Source of the DNA: an uncultured Clostridia bacterium
Lineage (GTDB): Bacteria; Bacillota; Clostridia; Christensenellales; Borkfalkiaceae
Length of the DNA stretch: 64,000 bases
Direction of reading: 5' to 3'
NCBI GenBank assembly: GCA_944368775.1
Contig: CALVXB010000008.1
Span: 1 to 64,000, forward strand
The translations under genes were made by a program, and so were the position numbers. Below the pieces are notes generated by a model. That model searched no databases and had not been told where the DNA came from. It was given only the letters and a program-made list of their open reading frames with translations. Below are positions 1,985 through 12,010 of this stretch, piece by piece. Each line of letters begins with the position of its first letter. Positions within the stretch are counted from its first letter, which is position 1.

Positions 1985-3169
1985 TTATCGATCGGCGGAA
2001 ATGCCGGGCGGGAGGCCGCGCGTTTGCTTCGTACAGCGGAAGGTCAGCTCGGTCATGACGATCATCAGCAGCACGAAGAAGAGCAGGTAAAAGGGCAAAA
2101 TTCCGAACCCGACGGCGCTGCCCAGCGCCCCGTACAGCGGCGGGAGAAAGGTCGAGCCGACGTACGCGCTCGCCATCTGGATGCCGATGATCGCGCCCGA
2201 GTTTTCCGCGCCGAAGTTTGCGGGCGTCGAGTGGATGATGCAGGGGTAGATGGGCCCGCAGCCGAACCCGATGACGACGAAGGCCGCGACGGGCAGCGCG
2301 CCCGAAACGGGGATAAACAGCAGCGCGATGCCGCAGATCAGGATGCCCGCGCCGATGCAGATCATCTTTCTGTCGCCCAGCTTGTCCGAGATGAAGCCGC
2401 TCAAAAAGCGGCTGGCGGTCAGGCCGATGTAAAAGAGGGAGGCGAGCTGCGCGGCCTGCTCGGCGGTGACGCCCTTCACCTCCGCAAAATAGGTGCTCGC
2501 CCAGCCCATCGCGGTCGCCTCCGCCGCGCAGTAGGCAAAAAACCCGATCAGGAGGAAGGGCACGCCGCGGATCTTGAGCGCGCCCAAAAGCCCGACGCTC
2601 TTTTGCTTTTGTTCGGCGGTCGCCTTGTTGACCTTCCACACGGGCAGCGTAAGCAGCAGCAGCGCGCCGATCGCCAGCTGGATGTACCCGACGATGCGGT
2701 AGCCGTCGTTCCAGGCGGAGCGGGTGAGGGCATAGCTCATCACAAAGGGGCTGACGATGGTACCCACCCCCCAAAAGCTGTGCAGCCAGCTCATGTGCTT
2801 GGCCTTGTAGTGCAGGGCGACGTAGTTGTTGAGCGCCGCGTCGATGGCGCCCGCGCCCAGCCCGTAGGGGAGGGCGAGCAACAGCAGCTGCCAAAAAGCG
2901 TTCGCAAACGAAAACCCGAGCAGCGCGCCCGCCGTCAAAAGCACGCTGACGACGGTGACGGCGGGCGTGCCGCAGGCGCGCGTCAGGCGGTCGGAGAGCA
3001 GGCTGGAGAGGATGGTGCAGGCGGAGATGACCATCGTCACGATGCCCATGTACGACACGGGCACGCCCAGCTCGCCGTGCATGGCGGGCCAGCCCGACCC
3101 GAGCAGAGAGTCGGGCAGGCCGAGGCTGATAAAGGCGAGGTAGATGAGTGCGAGCAGCAGCGAGTACAT
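1985..3169 (-). CDS. MFS transporter (FucP/sugar-permease-like)
   Basis: A 394-residue membrane protein with about 12 hydrophobic segments, the usual MFS length. Features typical of the family include GLPDSLLGSGWP in the first helix, the loop-2/3 basic motif SDRLTRACG, and a repeat of that loop in the second half (ISDKLGDRKM). The NNYVALHYKAKHMSWLH stretch after helix 4 is common in fucose/glucose-permease-like MFS proteins. The substrate cannot be read from sequence. GAAGGA lies 7 bp before the ATG. The gene is transcribed leftwards and is convergent with the gene ending at 1743, with spoIIID divergent on its right. Confidence 0.85.
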   Translation of the reverse strand: MYSLLLALIYLAFISLGLPDSLLGSGWPAMHGELGVPVSYMGIVTMVISACTILSSLLSDRLTRACGTPAVTVVSVLLTAGALLGFSFANAFWQLLLLALPYGLGAGAIDAALNNYVALHYKAKHMSWLHSFWGVGTIVSPFVMSYALTRSAWNDGYRIVGYIQLAIGALLLLTLPVWKVNKATAEQKQKSVGLLGALKIRGVPFLLIGFFAYCAAEATAMGWASTYFAEVKGVTAEQAAQLASLFYIGLTASRFLSGFISDKLGDRKMICIGAGILICGIALLFIPVSGALPVAAFVVIGFGCGPIYPCIIHSTPANFGAENSGAIIGIQMASAYVGSTFLPPLYGALGSAVGFGILPFYLLFFVLLMIVMTELTFRCTKQTRGLPPGISADR

Positions 3170-3931: not shown

Positions 3932-6868
3932 ATGGCAAAATTTTTGGGGATCGACGTCGGGTCGACCACCGTCAAAGTGAGCGTCTTGTCCGAGTCGCTC
4001 GAAATTTTATACACCAGCTACGAGCGGCACTTTGCGCGCGTCAAAGAGTGCGTGCTCGCGCAGCTTGCCGTCGTCCGCGAAAAGTTCGGCGACGACTTTT
4101 ACACCTGCATCACCGGCTCCGCGGGCTTGGGGCTCGCCGAGCGCAGCGGCGTGCCCTTCGTGCAGGAGGTGCAGGCCGCCTTCACCGCCATCCGCAAGTA
4201 TTATCCCGATGCGGACGCCGCCGTCGAGCTGGGCGGCGAGGACGCCAAGATCATCTTCGTCACCGGCGGCACCGAGCAGCGCATGAACGGCAGCTGCGCG
4301 GGCGGCACGGGCGCTTTCATCGACCAGATGGCGACCCTTTTGAATATTTCCGTGCCCGAGATGGACGCCCTCTCGCTGCGGGCGGAAAAGGTGTATCCCA
4401 TCGCCTCCCGCTGCGGCGTCTTCGCAAAATCGGACATCCAGCCCCTCCTGAACCAAGGGGCGCGCAAGGAGGACATCGCCGCCAGCATCTTTCAGGCGGT
4501 TGTCGACCAGACGGTCGCCGGCCTGGCGCAGGGGCGGCGCATCAAGGGGAAGGTGCTGTTTTTGGGCGGGCCGCTCTACTTTTTACAGGGGCTGCGGCGC
4601 GCCTTCAAACAGACGCTGAAGCTCGACGACGAGCACGCCGTCTTCCCCGAAAACGCCCCCTCGTTTATGGCGATCGGCGCGGCGCTGTACGCCGCCAACG
4701 TCGACCCCATGCCCATCGACGCCGTCATCGCGCGCATCCAAAGCGCTGCCGCCAGCGACGACATCGTCACCGGCGAGCCGCTGTTTGCGAGCATGGCCGA
4801 GTACGACGCCTTCGTCGCCCGCCACAAGGCGCACGACCTCGCCTTCGAGGACATCCGCACCTACCGCGGCGACGCATACCTCGGCGTCGACAGCGGCTCG
4901 ACGACGACCAAGCTCGTGCTCATCACGCCGGACTGCAAGCTCTTATACCGGCACTACCAGTCCAACAATGGCCAGCCGCTGGACATCGTCATCGAGCGCC
5001 TGCGCGAGATCTACTCGCTCGCGGGCGGGCGCATCCGCATCGCGGGCGCGGCGACGACCGGCTACGGCGAGGATCTCATCAAGGCTGCCGTCAAAGCGGA
5101 CTTCGGCATCGTCGAAACGGTCGCGCACTTCAAGGCGGCGCTGCACTTCGACCCCAAGGTCGACTTCATCATCGATATCGGCGGGCAGGACATCAAGTGC
5201 TTCAAGATCAAAAACGGCGCCATCGACAACATCATGCTCAACGAGGCGTGCTCCTCCGGCTGCGGCTCCTTCATCCAGACCTTTGCCAAGGCGATGGACA
5301 TGGAGATCGACGAGTTCTCCAAGCTCGGCCTGTTCGCCAAGCATCCCGTCGAGCTGGGCAGCCGCTGCACGGTGTTCATGAACAGCTCGGTCAAACAGGC
5401 GCAGAAGGAGGGCGCGAGCGTCGAGGACATCTCCGCCGGCCTCTCCGCCTCCATCGTCAAAAACGCCATCTACAAGGTCATCCGCGCCAAAACGCCGGAC
5501 GAGCTTGGCAGCAACATCCTCGTGCAGGGGGGTACCTTCCTCAACGACGCCGTGCTGCGCTGCTTCGAGCTTGAAACGGGCAAGCAAGTGGTCCGACCCG
5601 GCATCGCGGGGCTGATGGGCGCGTTCGGCGCCGCCCTCTACGCCAAGGAGAACGTGCGGGGCAAAAGCACCGTCGTCACCGAGGGCGAGCTGCGCACCTT
5701 CGCCTACACCTCGCGCAGCCACGTCTGCAAGGGCTGCACCTCGCACTGCAACGTCAACGTCATCGGCTTTTCGGACGGCCGCAAGTTCATCTCCGGCAAC
5801 AAGTGCGAAAAGGGCGCCGGCCTCAAGCCCCGCTCCGACGACCTCGATATCTATCATTATAAATATGAAAGGCTGCTGCAATGCGCCGAGGGCACGCGCG
5901 GCACCCGCGGCAGGGTGGGCCTGCCCGTCGTGCTCGGGTTCTACGAACAGCTCCCGCTGTGGACGGGCTTCTTCGAGGCGTGCGGCTTCGAGGTGGTCTT
6001 CAGCGAGCGCTCCTCGCGCAGCCTCTACTTCCGCGGGCAGCACACCGTCGCCAGCGACACCGTCTGCTACCCCGCAAAGCTGGCGCACGGGCACATCGAG
6101 AGCCTGCTCGACGCGGGCGTAGATTTTATCTTCTACCCCTGCGAGAGCTACAACCTCGACGAGCACGACTCGACAAATCACTACAACTGCCCCGTCGTCG
6201 CCTACTACCCCGAACTTTTGAAGGCGAACAACGAGCGGCTGAGCGACGAAAACTTCATCATGCCCTACATCGACCCCAACGACGAGCGCTCGACGGTGCG
6301 CGCGCTGCAGCGCGCGCTGAAACGGTACAAGCTGCCGCCGCGGCTCATCCGCGCGGGGCTCGCCGAGGGCTTTGCCCGCCTCGACGCCTTCCATGCCGAC
6401 GTCGAGCGCAAGGGAGACGAGATCGCCGCCGCCGCGCGCGCCGCGCACAAGCCCATCGTCGTGCTGGCGGGGCGGCCGTACCACGTCGACCCCGAGATCA
6501 ACCACGGCGTCGGCAAGCTGCTCACCTCGCTGGGCGTCGCCGTCCTCTCTGAGGACGCCGTATTCCGCAAGGGCAGGCAGGTGCTGGTCAACGTGCTCAA
6601 CCAGTGGACGTACCACGCCCGCCTCTACCGCGCGGCCGAGTATGTGACCGAAAACGACGACATGGAGCTGGTGCAGCTGGTCTCCTTCGGCTGCGGCATC
6701 GACGCGATCACCACCGACGAGGTGCGCGCCCTGCTCGAGAGCCGCGGCAAGCTGTACACCCAGATCAAGATCGACGAGATCAACAACCTCGGCGTGGTGA
6801 AGATCCGCCTGCGCAGCATGCTCGCCGCCGTCGAAGAACAGAAGAGGCACGCCCATGAAGAAAACTAA
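3932..6868 (+). CDS. Acyl-CoA dehydratase activase-like protein (two BadF/HgdC domains + DUF2229)
   Basis: A 978-residue protein. Residues 1-260 and about 315-570 are two ASKHA ATPase domains of the BadF/BadG/BcrA/HgdC family (LGIDVGSTTVK and LGVDSGSTTTK phosphate loops). Each has the two cysteines that bridge a [4Fe-4S] cluster in HgdC dimers (C122/C161 and C440/C479). A cysteine cluster (about 597-635) follows, then a DUF2229 domain with YPAKLAHGH and FYPCESYN. Known activases use ATP to inject one low-potential electron into 2-hydroxyacyl-CoA dehydratases. The true substrate of these large fused homologues is unknown. The start has GGAAAG upstream. It overlaps the next gene by 14 bp, and together they equal one 1,400-residue protein found fused in other Clostridia. 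Confidence 0.85.
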   Translation: MAKFLGIDVGSTTVKVSVLSESLEILYTSYERHFARVKECVLAQLAVVREKFGDDFYTCITGSAGLGLAERSGVPFVQEVQAAFTAIRKYYPDADAAVELGGEDAKIIFVTGGTEQRMNGSCAGGTGAFIDQMATLLNISVPEMDALSLRAEKVYPIASRCGVFAKSDIQPLLNQGARKEDIAASIFQAVVDQTVAGLAQGRRIKGKVLFLGGPLYFLQGLRRAFKQTLKLDDEHAVFPENAPSFMAIGAALYAANVDPMPIDAVIARIQSAAASDDIVTGEPLFASMAEYDAFVARHKAHDLAFEDIRTYRGDAYLGVDSGSTTTKLVLITPDCKLLYRHYQSNNGQPLDIVIERLREIYSLAGGRIRIAGAATTGYGEDLIKAAVKADFGIVETVAHFKAALHFDPKVDFIIDIGGQDIKCFKIKNGAIDNIMLNEACSSGCGSFIQTFAKAMDMEIDEFSKLGLFAKHPVELGSRCTVFMNSSVKQAQKEGASVEDISAGLSASIVKNAIYKVIRAKTPDELGSNILVQGGTFLNDAVLRCFELETGKQVVRPGIAGLMGAFGAALYAKENVRGKSTVVTEGELRTFAYTSRSHVCKGCTSHCNVNVIGFSDGRKFISGNKCEKGAGLKPRSDDLDIYHYKYERLLQCAEGTRGTRGRVGLPVVLGFYEQLPLWTGFFEACGFEVVFSERSSRSLYFRGQHTVASDTVCYPAKLAHGHIESLLDAGVDFIFYPCESYNLDEHDSTNHYNCPVVAYYPELLKANNERLSDENFIMPYIDPNDERSTVRALQRALKRYKLPPRLIRAGLAEGFARLDAFHADVERKGDEIAAAARAAHKPIVVLAGRPYHVDPEINHGVGKLLTSLGVAVLSEDAVFRKGRQVLVNVLNQWTYHARLYRAAEYVTENDDMELVQLVSFGCGIDAITTDEVRALLESRGKLYTQIKIDEINNLGVVKIRLRSMLAAVEEQKRHAHEEN

Positions 6869-8295: not shown

Positions 8296-8385
8296 CCCGT
8301 GCCCCTTGCGGACGGCGGCACAGAAACAGAGCGCGGCGGCGCAGAAACAGAGCGCTGCGGCGCGAGAATACGGTACGGAAAAATT

Positions 8386-8516: not shown

Positions 8517-9902
8517 TCACGAAGTCTTTTGGATCCCGCCGAGTTCGCCCAATATTTTTTCGCACGCGGGCTTAAAGATGCTTCTTTGCTCGACGAGGAT
8601 GGGTATGAGCTTGCGGATGAGTTCGGCGTTTGCCTCGATGATCGCCCGCGCCCGCTTGCAGCAGCCGTCGACGATCTCGTCAAACGCGGCGTTGATCTCG
8701 CTCACTCTTTCCTGCGGGTATTTCAGCGTCCCATTTCTGATTTCAGAATACCGCAGGCCGAGCCCCAGCAGCCCCGCTTCAGAAATGCCCGCCAGCACAT
8801 AGTCTGTCGTCATCAGCAGGGGATAGATGTTGTCGTACGTCTTATGCAGCACCACTTCCTCGGCGACGTACCCGCCCATCAGCGCGCAAATGGCGTTGAG
8901 GTAGTCTGCCTTTGTATAATATACAGACCGCTCGTCATCATCGTCATCGTCGTCGTCGCGGTCCGTGTCGTCGAAGTCGGCGCCGTCCTCGGCGTCATAG
9001 TCGTCGTCGTACCGGCCGATCGCCCCGTTGAAGTACAGGTTGCAGACGGTATCGTCGCCCAACCGCAGCAGGTAATCGCCCGTATTCAGGCTCCTCGCCA
9101 CGATAAAGCAGCCGATGTTGCGGCAGGCGGTTATCATGTCCGCCTGCGTGGGCGGCCTGCGCGGCAGATCGCCCGATCTGCTCTCGAGTATGCGCTCTTT
9201 GATCAGCTGTTCGGAGACAAAGCCGCGCTCGTCCGACTGCAAAACACATTCGTTGATCAGCGTTTCGAGCGCCGCGCAAGAAAAGCCGCCGCACAGCTTT
9301 GCAAGCTCTTCCATGCTCATCTCAAACGTGCAGCTCGTCTTTCCCGCGTACAGTTTGAGGATCTCCGCGCGCGAGGCGCGGTCGGGCAGGCCGATCTGTA
9401 TCTTTTTGTCGATCCTGCCGGGGCGGACGAGCGCGGCGGGCAGCTCGGCGTAGTTGTTGCAGGTCGCCACAAAGATAAAGTTTTTGTCGCTGTTCATGCC
9501 GTCGATCAGGGTCAGCAGCTGCGCGAGGACGGCCTTCGAGTGGTCGGAGTAATATTCTTCGCGCGCATTCGGCAGCACCTTGTCCATCTCGTCAAAAAAG
9601 ATCATGGCCGGCTCGCCCGATCTGCGCGCGCCTTCAAACGCCTTCTTGATTTTTTTCAGAAGCGCGTTTCCGTCCGACGGGCTGCCGAGGTCGATCTCGA
9701 TCATCTTCAGGTTGCAGGTGCTCGCCATCACTTTGGCGAACAGCGTCTTTCCCGTCCCCGTGCCCCCGTAAAAGATCACGCCCTTGGGCAGCTTTGCGCC
9801 GCGCGCAAGGTATTGCTCGCGGTCGTTGATGATGTCGCAAAGCCTTTGCAGTTCCGCCTTTTCCTGCGGGTATCCCGCGATGTCCGTAAACTTGTAATTC
9901 AT
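8517..9902 (-). CDS. FtsH-like AAA+ ATPase with degenerate M41 peptidase domain
   Basis: A 461-residue soluble protein. Residues 1-215 are an AAA+ module with Walker A GGTGTGKT (46-53), Walker B IFFDE (101-105), sensor-1 Asn149 and arginine finger RPGR (160-163). Residues 255-455 follow the FtsH peptidase fold: the TKADYLNAICALMGGYVAEEV segment (about 320-340) matches the conserved TKxELLxRIxxxLGGRAAEE helix, and a C-terminal helical bundle follows. The zinc-binding HEAGH is replaced by CRNIG (260-264), the third ligand segment is not conserved, and the aromatic pore loop (FVGVG in FtsH) is replaced by a Pro/Ser/Asp/Gly stretch. An Asp-rich insert lies at about 289-313. There are no membrane segments, unlike FtsH. 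ATP hydrolysis is likely and proteolysis is not. GGAGGTG precedes the ATG. Divergent from a WYL regulator. Confidence 0.8.
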   Translation of the reverse strand: MNYKFTDIAGYPQEKAELQRLCDIINDREQYLARGAKLPKGVIFYGGTGTGKTLFAKVMASTCNLKMIEIDLGSPSDGNALLKKIKKAFEGARRSGEPAMIFFDEMDKVLPNAREEYYSDHSKAVLAQLLTLIDGMNSDKNFIFVATCNNYAELPAALVRPGRIDKKIQIGLPDRASRAEILKLYAGKTSCTFEMSMEELAKLCGGFSCAALETLINECVLQSDERGFVSEQLIKERILESRSGDLPRRPPTQADMITACRNIGCFIVARSLNTGDYLLRLGDDTVCNLYFNGAIGRYDDDYDAEDGADFDDTDRDDDDDDDDERSVYYTKADYLNAICALMGGYVAEEVVLHKTYDNIYPLLMTTDYVLAGISEAGLLGLGLRYSEIRNGTLKYPQERVSEINAAFDEIVDGCCKRARAIIEANAELIRKLIPILVEQRSIFKPACEKILGELGGIQKTS

Positions 9903-9937: not shown

Positions 9938-9943
9938 TTTATA
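9938..9943 (-). promoter_or_regulatory. Possible -10 of the AAA+ gene
   Basis: On the minus strand TATAAA lies 36 bp before the start codon at 9902. No good -35 is visible, and activator dependence would fit but is unproven. Confidence 0.35.
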
Positions 9944-9987
9944 CGATGGGGGCAGAATTTGTAATACCGCAATCTTTAAAATTTTTT

Positions 9988-10050
9988 TGACCCCTGTTTT
10001 GCGGGTACGTTCTTGCAAATATGCTTGATTTATGACCCCTTTTCGGGTAC
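9988..10050 (+). promoter_or_regulatory. Twin operator-like repeats in the divergent intergenic region
   Basis: Two related elements lie between the divergent AAA+ and WYL genes: 9988-10008 (TGACCCC, 7 bases, GCGGGTAC) and 10033-10050 (TGACCCC, TTTT, CGGGTAC). Each is partly palindromic (ACCC..GGGT), and their starts are 45 bp apart. The second overlaps the spacer and first -10 bases of the WYL promoter, a position suited to autorepression. Confidence 0.55.
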
Positions 10051-10053
10051 AAT
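10025..10053 (+). promoter_or_regulatory. Promoter of the WYL regulator gene
   Basis: TTGATT (10025-10030), 17-bp spacer, TACAAT (10048-10053). The start codon is 20 bp further on. Confidence 0.7.
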
Positions 10054-10073: not shown

Positions 10074-11081
10074 ATGGACGAAAAGATCAAGATCAGCGCG
10101 CCGCAGTCGCTGTTCGAGTTGTTAAAAAAGGACTGCGAAGATTTCAAAATAACCAAGCCGGACGGCTCCCCCAACATGAACGCCTTTTTGAACGCCGTCG
10201 TCGCCAACTTTTACGAGGCGTTTGCCGGCGCGGAAGAAAAGCTGCGCGACGAGGTGAAAAACGCCGTCGCGATCGTGCCCGACCGCTATCGCGAAACGGT
10301 GTTTTTAAGCACGTTGAAGATACTCGCAAAGAGGCAGCCGGACGGCGAAAGCAAGCAGAGCAAGGTCTTTTCTTTCAAGCCCACAAAAAATACGGAAAGG
10401 GCGGTCATCTATATAGAAAATTTGCTGCTGCAAAACGAGTCGCTCTCCTCCTATTACAGGCGGTTGTTCACGGCGTATGCGCAAAAGACGAAAAACGAGC
10501 GGGAGAAGATCGTCTTTAAAGAAAATTATTCCCTGCTGACGAAGGCGCTCAAAAAGGGGGTCAAGGTCTGCATTTCGTTCGCAAAGGGAAACGTGATCAA
10601 GGGCGCGTCCGTCTACGCGGTCAGCGCCGCCAAGGAAGAGCTGTTCAATTACGTCCTCTTTTACAGCGGCAAACAAAACGTCACCGCGAGGCTTGCGTCC
10701 GTAAAGACGGTATCGCTGCTCGCGGAAAAGGGCTCGATGCCCGCGGAAAACGCCGAATTGTTCAGGCGCCAGGCGGAGTGCGCGCCGCAGTACCCCATGT
10801 ACAATACAGACAGAGAGCCGATCCGCGTGCGGCTCACCGAAAAGGGAAAGGCGCTGTTCAAAAAAATTTATCTGTACCGGCCGACGCCTGTCTGCATCGA
10901 GGGCGACGTATATACCTTTGCGTGTTCTGCAAACCAGCTCTTATACTATTTTGAACGCTTCGGCGACAGCGCCGTCATCCTCTCGCCCAAAAAGCTGGGC
11001 ATCTTTATGCGCAACTATTATTACTTTGCCTATAAAAAGTACGCGTCGCTGTACGGCAAAGACGGCTCGTGGAAACCGTAA
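10074..11081 (+). CDS. WYL-domain transcriptional regulator with N-terminal ribbon-helix-helix-like region
   Basis: 335 residues; ATG at 10074 chosen for AAGGAGGG 5 bp upstream. The N-terminus (KIKISAPQSLFELLKK, then MNAFLNAVVANFY) resembles a ribbon-helix-helix DNA-binding unit. About 165-225 has the WYL beta-barrel pattern (VCISFAKG, then FNYVLFYSGKQNVTARLASV), and a WCX-like C-terminal extension follows (REPIRVRLTEKG, then FGDSAVILSPKKLGIFM). WYL proteins are ligand- or nucleic-acid-responsive regulators found near phage-defence, DNA-damage and protein-quality genes. Here the divergent partner is a pseudoprotease AAA+ protein. Codons are less GC-biased than in flanking genes, suggesting an accessory origin. 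Confidence 0.7.
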   Translation: MDEKIKISAPQSLFELLKKDCEDFKITKPDGSPNMNAFLNAVVANFYEAFAGAEEKLRDEVKNAVAIVPDRYRETVFLSTLKILAKRQPDGESKQSKVFSFKPTKNTERAVIYIENLLLQNESLSSYYRRLFTAYAQKTKNEREKIVFKENYSLLTKALKKGVKVCISFAKGNVIKGASVYAVSAAKEELFNYVLFYSGKQNVTARLASVKTVSLLAEKGSMPAENAELFRRQAECAPQYPMYNTDREPIRVRLTEKGKALFKKIYLYRPTPVCIEGDVYTFACSANQLLYYFERFGDSAVILSPKKLGIFMRNYYYFAYKKYASLYGKDGSWKP

Positions 11082-11170: not shown

Positions 11171-11469
11171 AAATTTGATCTTCGGTCTGGCGGATTCAAA
11201 CTTCGCTCACCAACCCAGATAAAAAGGGCATCCTTTATGGATCCCCTTTTTATCTGGAGCTACTGGCCGGACTTGAACCGGCGACCTATTGTCACCCCAA
11301 AAAAATGCGCGGCAGGGGGCCCGTCGGGCGGGTGCGCCTTTTTTTGGGGGCCCCGAAATTTAATCTTCGGTCTGGCGGATTCAAACTTCGCTCACAATTC
11401 CAAACAAAAAAGCACCCATCAGGGTGCTTTTTTGTTTGGAGCTACTGGCCGGACTTGAACCGGCGACCT
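11171..11469 (-). repeat. Duplicated tRNA-Thr 3' flank module
   Basis: Two copies of one arrangement. A 40-bp box (11171-11210 and 11356-11395, one mismatch) is followed by a terminator hairpin (11217-11255, 16 of 17 pairs; and 11402-11437, 16 pairs) of unrelated primary sequence. A 33-bp identical tRNA 3' end comes last (11255-11287 and 11437-11469). The left copy lacks the 5' half of the tRNA. A third hairpin with arms CCCCAAAAAAA/TTTTTTTGGGG lies between them (about 11294-11350). Confidence 0.8.
11402..11437 (-). terminator. tRNA-Thr terminator
   Basis: 16-bp stem (11402-11417/11422-11437) with loop ATCA. The minus-strand reading gives GGGTGC followed by TTTTTT. Confidence 0.85.
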
Positions 11470-11512
11470 GCTGATTACGAATCAGCTGCTCTACCGACTG
11501 AGCCACAGTAGC
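11437..11512 (-). tRNA. tRNA-Thr (anticodon CGU)
   Basis: A 76-nt tRNA on the minus strand, 5' end at 11512. The acceptor stem GCTACTG pairs with CAGTAGC, and the discriminator T plus CCA are encoded at 11440-11437. The D-arm is GCTC..GAGC, the anticodon stem-loop is GCTGA-TTCGTAA-TCAGC with anticodon CGT, and the T-arm is CCGGTTCAAGTCCGG. It is the only intact RNA gene seen in the window. Extra copies of its ends flank it on both sides. Confidence 0.93.
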
Positions 11513-11541
11513 GTATTTAATTAACAATTAGCCAAGTCAAG

Positions 11542-11716
11542 TCCGCGACGAATCAGCTGGAGCGACCGAGCCACAGTAGCGATTGAACTATCAATGTTAT
11601 TTCAGTAATCTCCGCGACGAATCAGCCGGAGCGACTGAGCCACAGTAGCGATTGAACTATTCTGTTATCTCGGTAACTCCGCGACGAATCAGCCGGAGCG
11701 ACTGAGCCACAGTAGC
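11542..11716 (-). repeat. Three tandem tRNA-Thr 5'-half fragments
   Basis: 39-bp units at 11542-11580, 11611-11649 and 11678-11716, spaced 67-69 bp. On the minus strand each keeps the acceptor 5' strand and D-stem start of the tRNA (GCTACTGTGGCTCAG) and GCTGATTCGT of the anticodon arm, but lacks the rest and cannot fold as tRNA. They lie upstream of the intact gene in the direction of transcription. Confidence 0.8.
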
Positions 11717-11850
11717 GATTTTTTTGTGCGGCGTTTTTCAGCGACTTAGCTCGATTATTATAGCATATTTTGCGGAAAAATCAAACGATTTTCGGGCGGA
11801 ATTGCGAAAAAAATCAAAAACCGCCGCGCCGCCGCCCCATGCGGTCGGCG

Positions 11851-12010
11851 GCGCGGCGGTGGGAGGGCGTGCGCGGCGGTGGGAGGGCGTGCGCGGCGGT
11901 GGGAGGGCGTGCGCAGCGGTGGGAGGGCGTGCGCGGCGGTGGGAGGGCGTGCGCGGCGGTGGGAGGGCGTGCGCGGCGGTGAGAGGGGCGTGCGCGGCGG
12001 CGGGCAGGCG
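11851..12010. repeat. 20-bp GC-rich tandem repeat (about 8 copies)
   Basis: Unit GCGCGGCGGTGGGAGGGCGT starting at 11851, 11871, 11891, 11911 (one change), 11931, 11951, 11971 (one insertion) and a decayed copy at 11992. The unit length is not a multiple of three and no start site with an SD precedes it, so it is taken as non-coding. The rest of 12010-12150 shows nothing recognisable. Confidence 0.85.

Follow-up and report, generated by a model that had tools for sequence, protein, structure and literature searches.

The best-known inactive FtsH proteins are those of plant chloroplasts, which cannot do without them. Besides those known in plants, one inactive version has been recorded in Prochlorococcus marinus SS120 (PMC8197885, PMC6460958), and the plant FtsHi pseudo-proteases act in mixed complexes with FtsH12 (PMC8197885). 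FtsH-type AAA components are also part of bacterial conflict systems, in which the first ATPase domain, not the protease, is dead (PMC7159879). Among WYL proteins, RspWYL1 is a three-domain dimer (RHH, WYL and CTD) that binds both ssRNA and Cas13d, and prefers ssRNA over dsDNA (PMC6547453). In the open-access papers searched, we found no account of a bacterial FtsH pseudo-protease that is soluble and has a WYL regulator as its partner.

Such a pair is present in the window, the whole stretch of 64,000 nucleotides that was analysed. The pseudo-FtsH (8517..9902, reverse strand, ATG start, 461 aa) joins an AAA+ ATPase to a degenerate M41 scaffold, and is divergent to a gene for a WYL1-like protein of 335 aa (10074..11081, forward strand). 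As in FtsH of peptidase family M41 (TIGR01241, PF01434), the AAA+ core, the second region of homology and the M41 helical scaffold follow each other in the same order; unlike FtsH, the protein lacks the transmembrane part, the FVG pore loop and HExxH, carries an acidic insert, and scores below the family cut-offs. It resembles the FtsHi pseudo-proteases in having an intact AAA module and a lost HEXXH (PMC8197885), but these sit in the membrane and have FtsH12 as their partner, while pseudo-FtsH is soluble, bacterial and WYL-paired. RspWYL1 (PDB 6oaw), a type VI-D CRISPR accessory, is matched by the partner protein over its WYL and C-terminal part (E 6e-9); it goes with Cas13d, whereas WYL1 here goes with an AAA+ pseudo-protease gene and conserved operator-like DNA elements. 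On balance, we lean towards reading the two genes as a mobile divergent unit in which a nucleic-acid-sensing WYL1 switch would control a non-proteolytic FtsH-type remodeller as its effector.

Domain architecture of the pseudo-FtsH

The AAA+ module covers residues 1-245 (9168..9902; all features of this gene lie on the reverse strand). Walker A (9744-9767), Walker B (9588-9605), sensor 1 and the arginine fingers are all present, in agreement with the first-pass annotation, which had described the ATPase residues as intact. The HMM search proposed in that annotation was positive for Pfam AAA (1.4e-26), and for Peptidase_M41 it remained sub-threshold, at 26.7 bits against the Pfam cut-off of 29.9. 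The FtsH equivalog model TIGR01241 gave 163.3 bits, compared with a curated cut-off of 600. Among solved structures, Cdc48/p97-type AAA domains were the best matches, followed by FtsH, all of them through the AAA part.

To the region after the AAA module, profile-profile comparison was applied separately. A profile of 16 sequences of the C-terminal region, compared with the M41 domains of nine canonical FtsH sequences, gave an hhalign probability of 99.3% (E 3.5e-19), against less than 1% for an unrelated profile and five column-shuffled controls. By this comparison, the C-terminal part of pseudo-FtsH is homologous to the M41 fold, which bears out the earlier reading that the M41 scaffold helices remain. 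The retained scaffold, comprising GGYVAEE and the C-terminal helices, spans 8520..8927. An AlphaFold2 model computed from three alignment rows, two of them canonical FtsH, had a pLDDT of 49, and of about 25 over C-terminal residues 271-380.

The catalytic motif of the M41 domain is lost. In the profile alignment, the canonical A-Y-H-E-S-G-H faces A-C-R-N-I-G-C of pseudo-FtsH. The replacement of HEAGH had been recognized from the start, in another register: the position is occupied by R261-N262-I263-G264-C265 (RNIGC, 9108..9122), not by CRNIG at 260-264, so that zinc ligands and catalytic Glu are lost. The third zinc-ligand segment had been described as not conserved; this is true of the window protein, where Asp is replaced by Leu, but about half of the orthologues keep Asp there. 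When aligned with FtsH, pseudo-FtsH shows no FVG, confirming the disappearance of the aromatic pore loop. The N-terminal membrane anchor is also missing, the AAA domain beginning at residue 1, and the maximum 19-residue hydropathy of 1.32, compared with 2.5-3.3 in canonical FtsH, agrees with the annotated lack of membrane segments. The Asp-rich insert noted at first is an acidic low-complexity stretch at residues 299-325 (8928..9008; 19 of 27 residues D/E), and an insert of 24-52 residues with 44-73% D/E is found in 26/26 orthologues. As judged from its sequence, pseudo-FtsH is a protein in which the residues for ATP hydrolysis are kept, an acidic loop has been added, and the protease centre, the membrane anchor and the aromatic pore loop are gone.

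A soluble, protease-dead form had been called unusual for the bacterial FtsH clade. Solubility alone does not make it so, since the same genome encodes two tandem short soluble HEAGH proteins (L027). These belong to a genus-wide family (L027 6795-8069 and 9893-11167 on contig C5 of the host genome; L028, L029, L032, L033, L035-L038). Like pseudo-FtsH, the short proteins (about 425 aa) are soluble, of AAA+ M41 type and devoid of the aromatic pore loop; unlike it, they keep HEAGH intact, form a separate tree branch, and have no WYL1 gene in the flanks examined.

Orthologues, selection and genomic setting

Whole-genome searches identified pseudo-FtsH in 22 of the 398 genomes of the family. Four further carriers were found among 396 genomes sampled from the order, and none among 290 other genomes sampled from the class. 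All 26 orthologues were included in the alignment and form one clade in the tree (support 100/100). Walker A G-K-T, Walker B D-E, sensor-1 N149 and Arg163, the second arginine finger, are invariant in 26/26, and Arg160, the first finger, is kept in 25/26. HExxH is absent and the catalytic Glu missing throughout (26/26), and an RN-[ILV]-G-like signature is present in 24/26. Absence of the zinc ligands from every homologue had been proposed as a check, and it holds for 24/26; the two most divergent members, which read HQVGH (L100) and HSVGH (L096), keep both histidines and also have Asp at the aligned third-ligand position. These two branch outside the other 24 (100/99), with weak support for the order of the two deepest branches (86/53). 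With HQVGH and HSVGH in the two outer branches, tree and alignment suggest a stepwise loss, with Glu lost first and the zinc ligands later.

Between close pairs, dN/dS over residues 246-298, which hold the dead centre, is 0.05-0.12, compared with 0.05-0.10 in the AAA part. The two ranges are similarly low, and by this measure the dead segment is under strong purifying selection, maintained and not eroding. In the orthologue at L095 (5989-7587), the C-terminal helices are lost, and hydrophobic, membrane-like segments form the end of the protein in their place.

Flanking genes differ between loci, only the pair being common to them. Of the relatives that share the left flank, the closest (neighbour protein 98% identical) diverges after window position 8342, and approximately 1 kb of this relative past the divergence point contained no match to the pair. 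Two genomes of another taxonomic family (G474, G694) encode proteins that share 64-65% identity with the window protein, more than most members of the window's own family do, and for this reason horizontal spread of the pair is likely. An origin from phages finds no support, as a search of viral contigs returned a single weak, AAA-only match.

At several loci a tRNA gene is found close to the pair: tRNA-Thr(CGT) in the window and at three loci of another genus (L077, L078, L080), and tRNA-Leu at L097 and L098; at L085 and L086, the pair adjoins tRNA-Lys. In the window, the tRNA-Thr(CGT) gene (11437-11512) and a 33-bp copy of its 3' end (11255-11287) fall within 11247-11727, together with three partial copies of its 5' half at 11535-11727; similar arrays exist in relatives. 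Site-specific integration of the pair at this gene is not supported, the 33-bp copy bounding a small adjacent interval and not the pair. Further along, upstream of malQ, 11851-12010 is occupied by a GC-rich tandem repeat whose unit is 20 bp long (GCGCGGCGGTGGGAGGGCGT). A second, separate lineage of protease-dead short FtsH proteins, with SIAGK for HEAGH (L030 4770-6071, L031 4907-6208), adjoins the same tRNA-Thr(CGT) gene as the window pair.

The WYL1 gene and the putative intergenic switch region

A survey for a conserved WYL neighbour had been recommended in the first-pass annotation, and a divergent WYL1 gene was indeed found beside 24/24 inner-clade members, in one of them truncated by the contig end; across this clade it codes for about 330 aa. 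The outer two members with HxxxH (L100, L096) have no WYL1 gene. Within the family, strong WYL1 genes occur only alongside the ATPase, except for two, each at most about 260 bp from a contig end. A search for a third conserved gene around the pair found none, WYL1 being the only neighbour common to the loci. The WYL1-like protein of the window comprises a probable N-terminal ribbon-helix-helix, a WYL domain and a C-terminal domain. The first of these is suggested by a sequence pattern seen by eye, and has no Pfam match; the partner profile matches the WYL and C-terminal part of RspWYL1 at E 6.1e-9 (profile positions 122-318), and the PADLOC WYL model matches at 5e-5.

The two genes are separated by 171 bp. 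This region holds two operator-like cores on the forward strand, O1 (TGACCCCT, 9988..9995) and O2 (TGACCCCT, 10033..10040), 45 bp apart. O2 sits in the spacer between the -35 and -10 elements of a promoter-like site of the WYL gene (TTGATT, 17 bp, TACAAT; 10025..10053, forward strand). On the reverse strand, the pseudo-FtsH gene is preceded by a -10-like TATAAA (9938..9943) with no obvious -35, and a block reading ACCGCAAT (9966..9973, forward strand), with the conserved core CGCAA, recurs in most intergenic regions of the pair. The consensus of the operator-like core is TG[AC]CCCCT, in two copies usually 45 bp apart; two cores were counted in 20/24 intergenic regions, against 0.004 expected from shuffles, in an automated count that omits L098 and L084 owing to ORF-start choice (L098 shows both copies on reading). 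The two members without WYL1 have no such cores, and the extended operator pattern is matched exactly at a single place in the host genome, which is O2. At L085 and L086, a tRNA-Lys(TTT) gene (2947-3023 and 5751-5827, respectively) separates the operators from the ATPase start within the intergenic region.

The same bacterial family also contains a second WYL1 class, scoring approximately 195-250 bits compared with about 600 for the ATPase-paired class. Its genes are often divergent to RtcB (PF01139, 2.5e-58) and/or to an unnamed protein of about 165 aa (L114, L115, L118, L119, L122, L124-L126, L129 and similar loci); WYL1 paralogue and RtcB or the ~165-aa protein possibly form a WYL-controlled RNA-repair unit. 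TG[AC]CCCCT occurs twice in 6/16 of these loci and at least once in 13/16, where shuffles give a mean of 0.01 for two cores. As RtcB-linked WYL1 genes carry the same element, the operator logic seems to belong to the WYL1 family and not to a single locus. An operator common to the WYL1-RtcB unit further suggests that one regulator family has been put to different uses, governing RNA repair in certain genomes and a protein remodeller elsewhere.

Proposed mechanism and alternative explanations

From position and conservation, WYL1 would bind both TG[AC]CCCCT elements, repressing its own promoter through O2 between -35 and -10. It would sense a nucleic-acid ligand, a behaviour suggested by other WYL regulators and by the ssRNA-binding RspWYL1, and then switch the pseudo-FtsH promoter; the upstream site may be used to activate the ATPase gene, and the other one for autorepression. 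Because RspWYL1 prefers ssRNA to dsDNA (PMC6547453), the homologue here might act on RNA or protein instead of a promoter. With less support than these WYL1 steps, pseudo-FtsH might assemble into a ring that uses ATP to remodel a complex, or to take it apart, with no degradation; the M41 scaffold would act as the assembly platform, and the acidic loops would contact a basic, probably nucleic-acid-binding, client. Threading of a polypeptide is unlikely because the aromatic pore loop is absent, and the remodelling step may differ from that of FtsH. Whereas the first-pass annotation had inferred an adaptor, chaperone or sensor, the partner gene speaks for an effector under regulation, and pseudo-FtsH has probably been turned into a stress-switched, ATP-driven remodelling machine. 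A more specific version appeals to us only as a speculation: a new mobile stress or defence unit, in which WYL1 would sense damaged or foreign nucleic acid, the nucleic-acid-mimicking acidic loops of the dead-FtsH ring would strip nucleic-acid-binding proteins, and the operator logic would be that of the paralogous WYL1-RtcB RNA-repair unit.

A possible, though less favoured, alternative is a module of conflict with phages or mobile elements, in which WYL1 senses infection and the dead FtsH is the executor. The patchy, sporadic occurrence of the pair in unrelated surroundings would fit this, WYL regulators often govern defence systems (PMC9122601, PMC9122588), and some neighbours match restriction or candidate-defence families (L083, L084); however, 8/10 neighbours tested had no convincing defence match, and the viral-contig search described above offered nothing beyond its AAA-only match. 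The weak similarity of pseudo-FtsH to the AAA protein IetA of the IetAS defence system is limited to the generic AAA core, and no IetS-type protease partner is conserved.

We consider it rather improbable that WYL1 acts on the ATPase directly, as a partner protein or an inhibitor in the manner of toxin-antitoxin pairs or of RspWYL1 with Cas13d, instead of mainly as a transcription factor. RspWYL1 binds and boosts the effector Cas13d directly (PMC6547453), pseudo-FtsH and WYL1 are strictly paired, and contact between the acidic loop and a basic RHH face is conceivable. DNA binding is nevertheless favoured by the conserved repeats on the WYL promoter, common to the RtcB-linked paralogues, and the divergent genes are not co-transcribed.

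More doubtful still is an inactive subunit in mixed rings with active FtsH, be it the membrane-bound one or the short soluble paralogues with HEAGH, comparable to FtsHi-FtsH12. Plant FtsHi pseudo-proteases do join FtsH12 complexes (PMC8197885), and the host encodes a canonical FtsH as well as two soluble paralogues with intact active sites. Yet canonical FtsH is near universal and pseudo-FtsH rare, one carrier genome (G056) has no short soluble FtsH at E 1e-20, and the genomic linkage of pseudo-FtsH is to WYL1 and to neither FtsH form. Finally, a decaying or misread FtsH pseudogene, which the lost active-site residues and membrane anchor might suggest, is refuted by the existence of 26 orthologues, the invariance of their ATPase motifs, the conservation of an RN-[ILV]-G signature and the dN/dS of 0.05-0.12.

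Pseudo-FtsH is a compact, soluble, bacterial inactive FtsH, apparently of separate origin from the chloroplast ones, for which likely intermediates of protease loss are still extant (HQVGH, HSVGH). With one regulator of its own and a well-delimited switch region, it is a simple system for studying the role of the FtsH scaffold once cutting is lost. A related AAA domain also occurs in open frames of 1132-1545 aa (G016:C9, G019:C51, G030:C7, G050:C65, G072:C21, G091:C13), which are possibly large fusion proteins.
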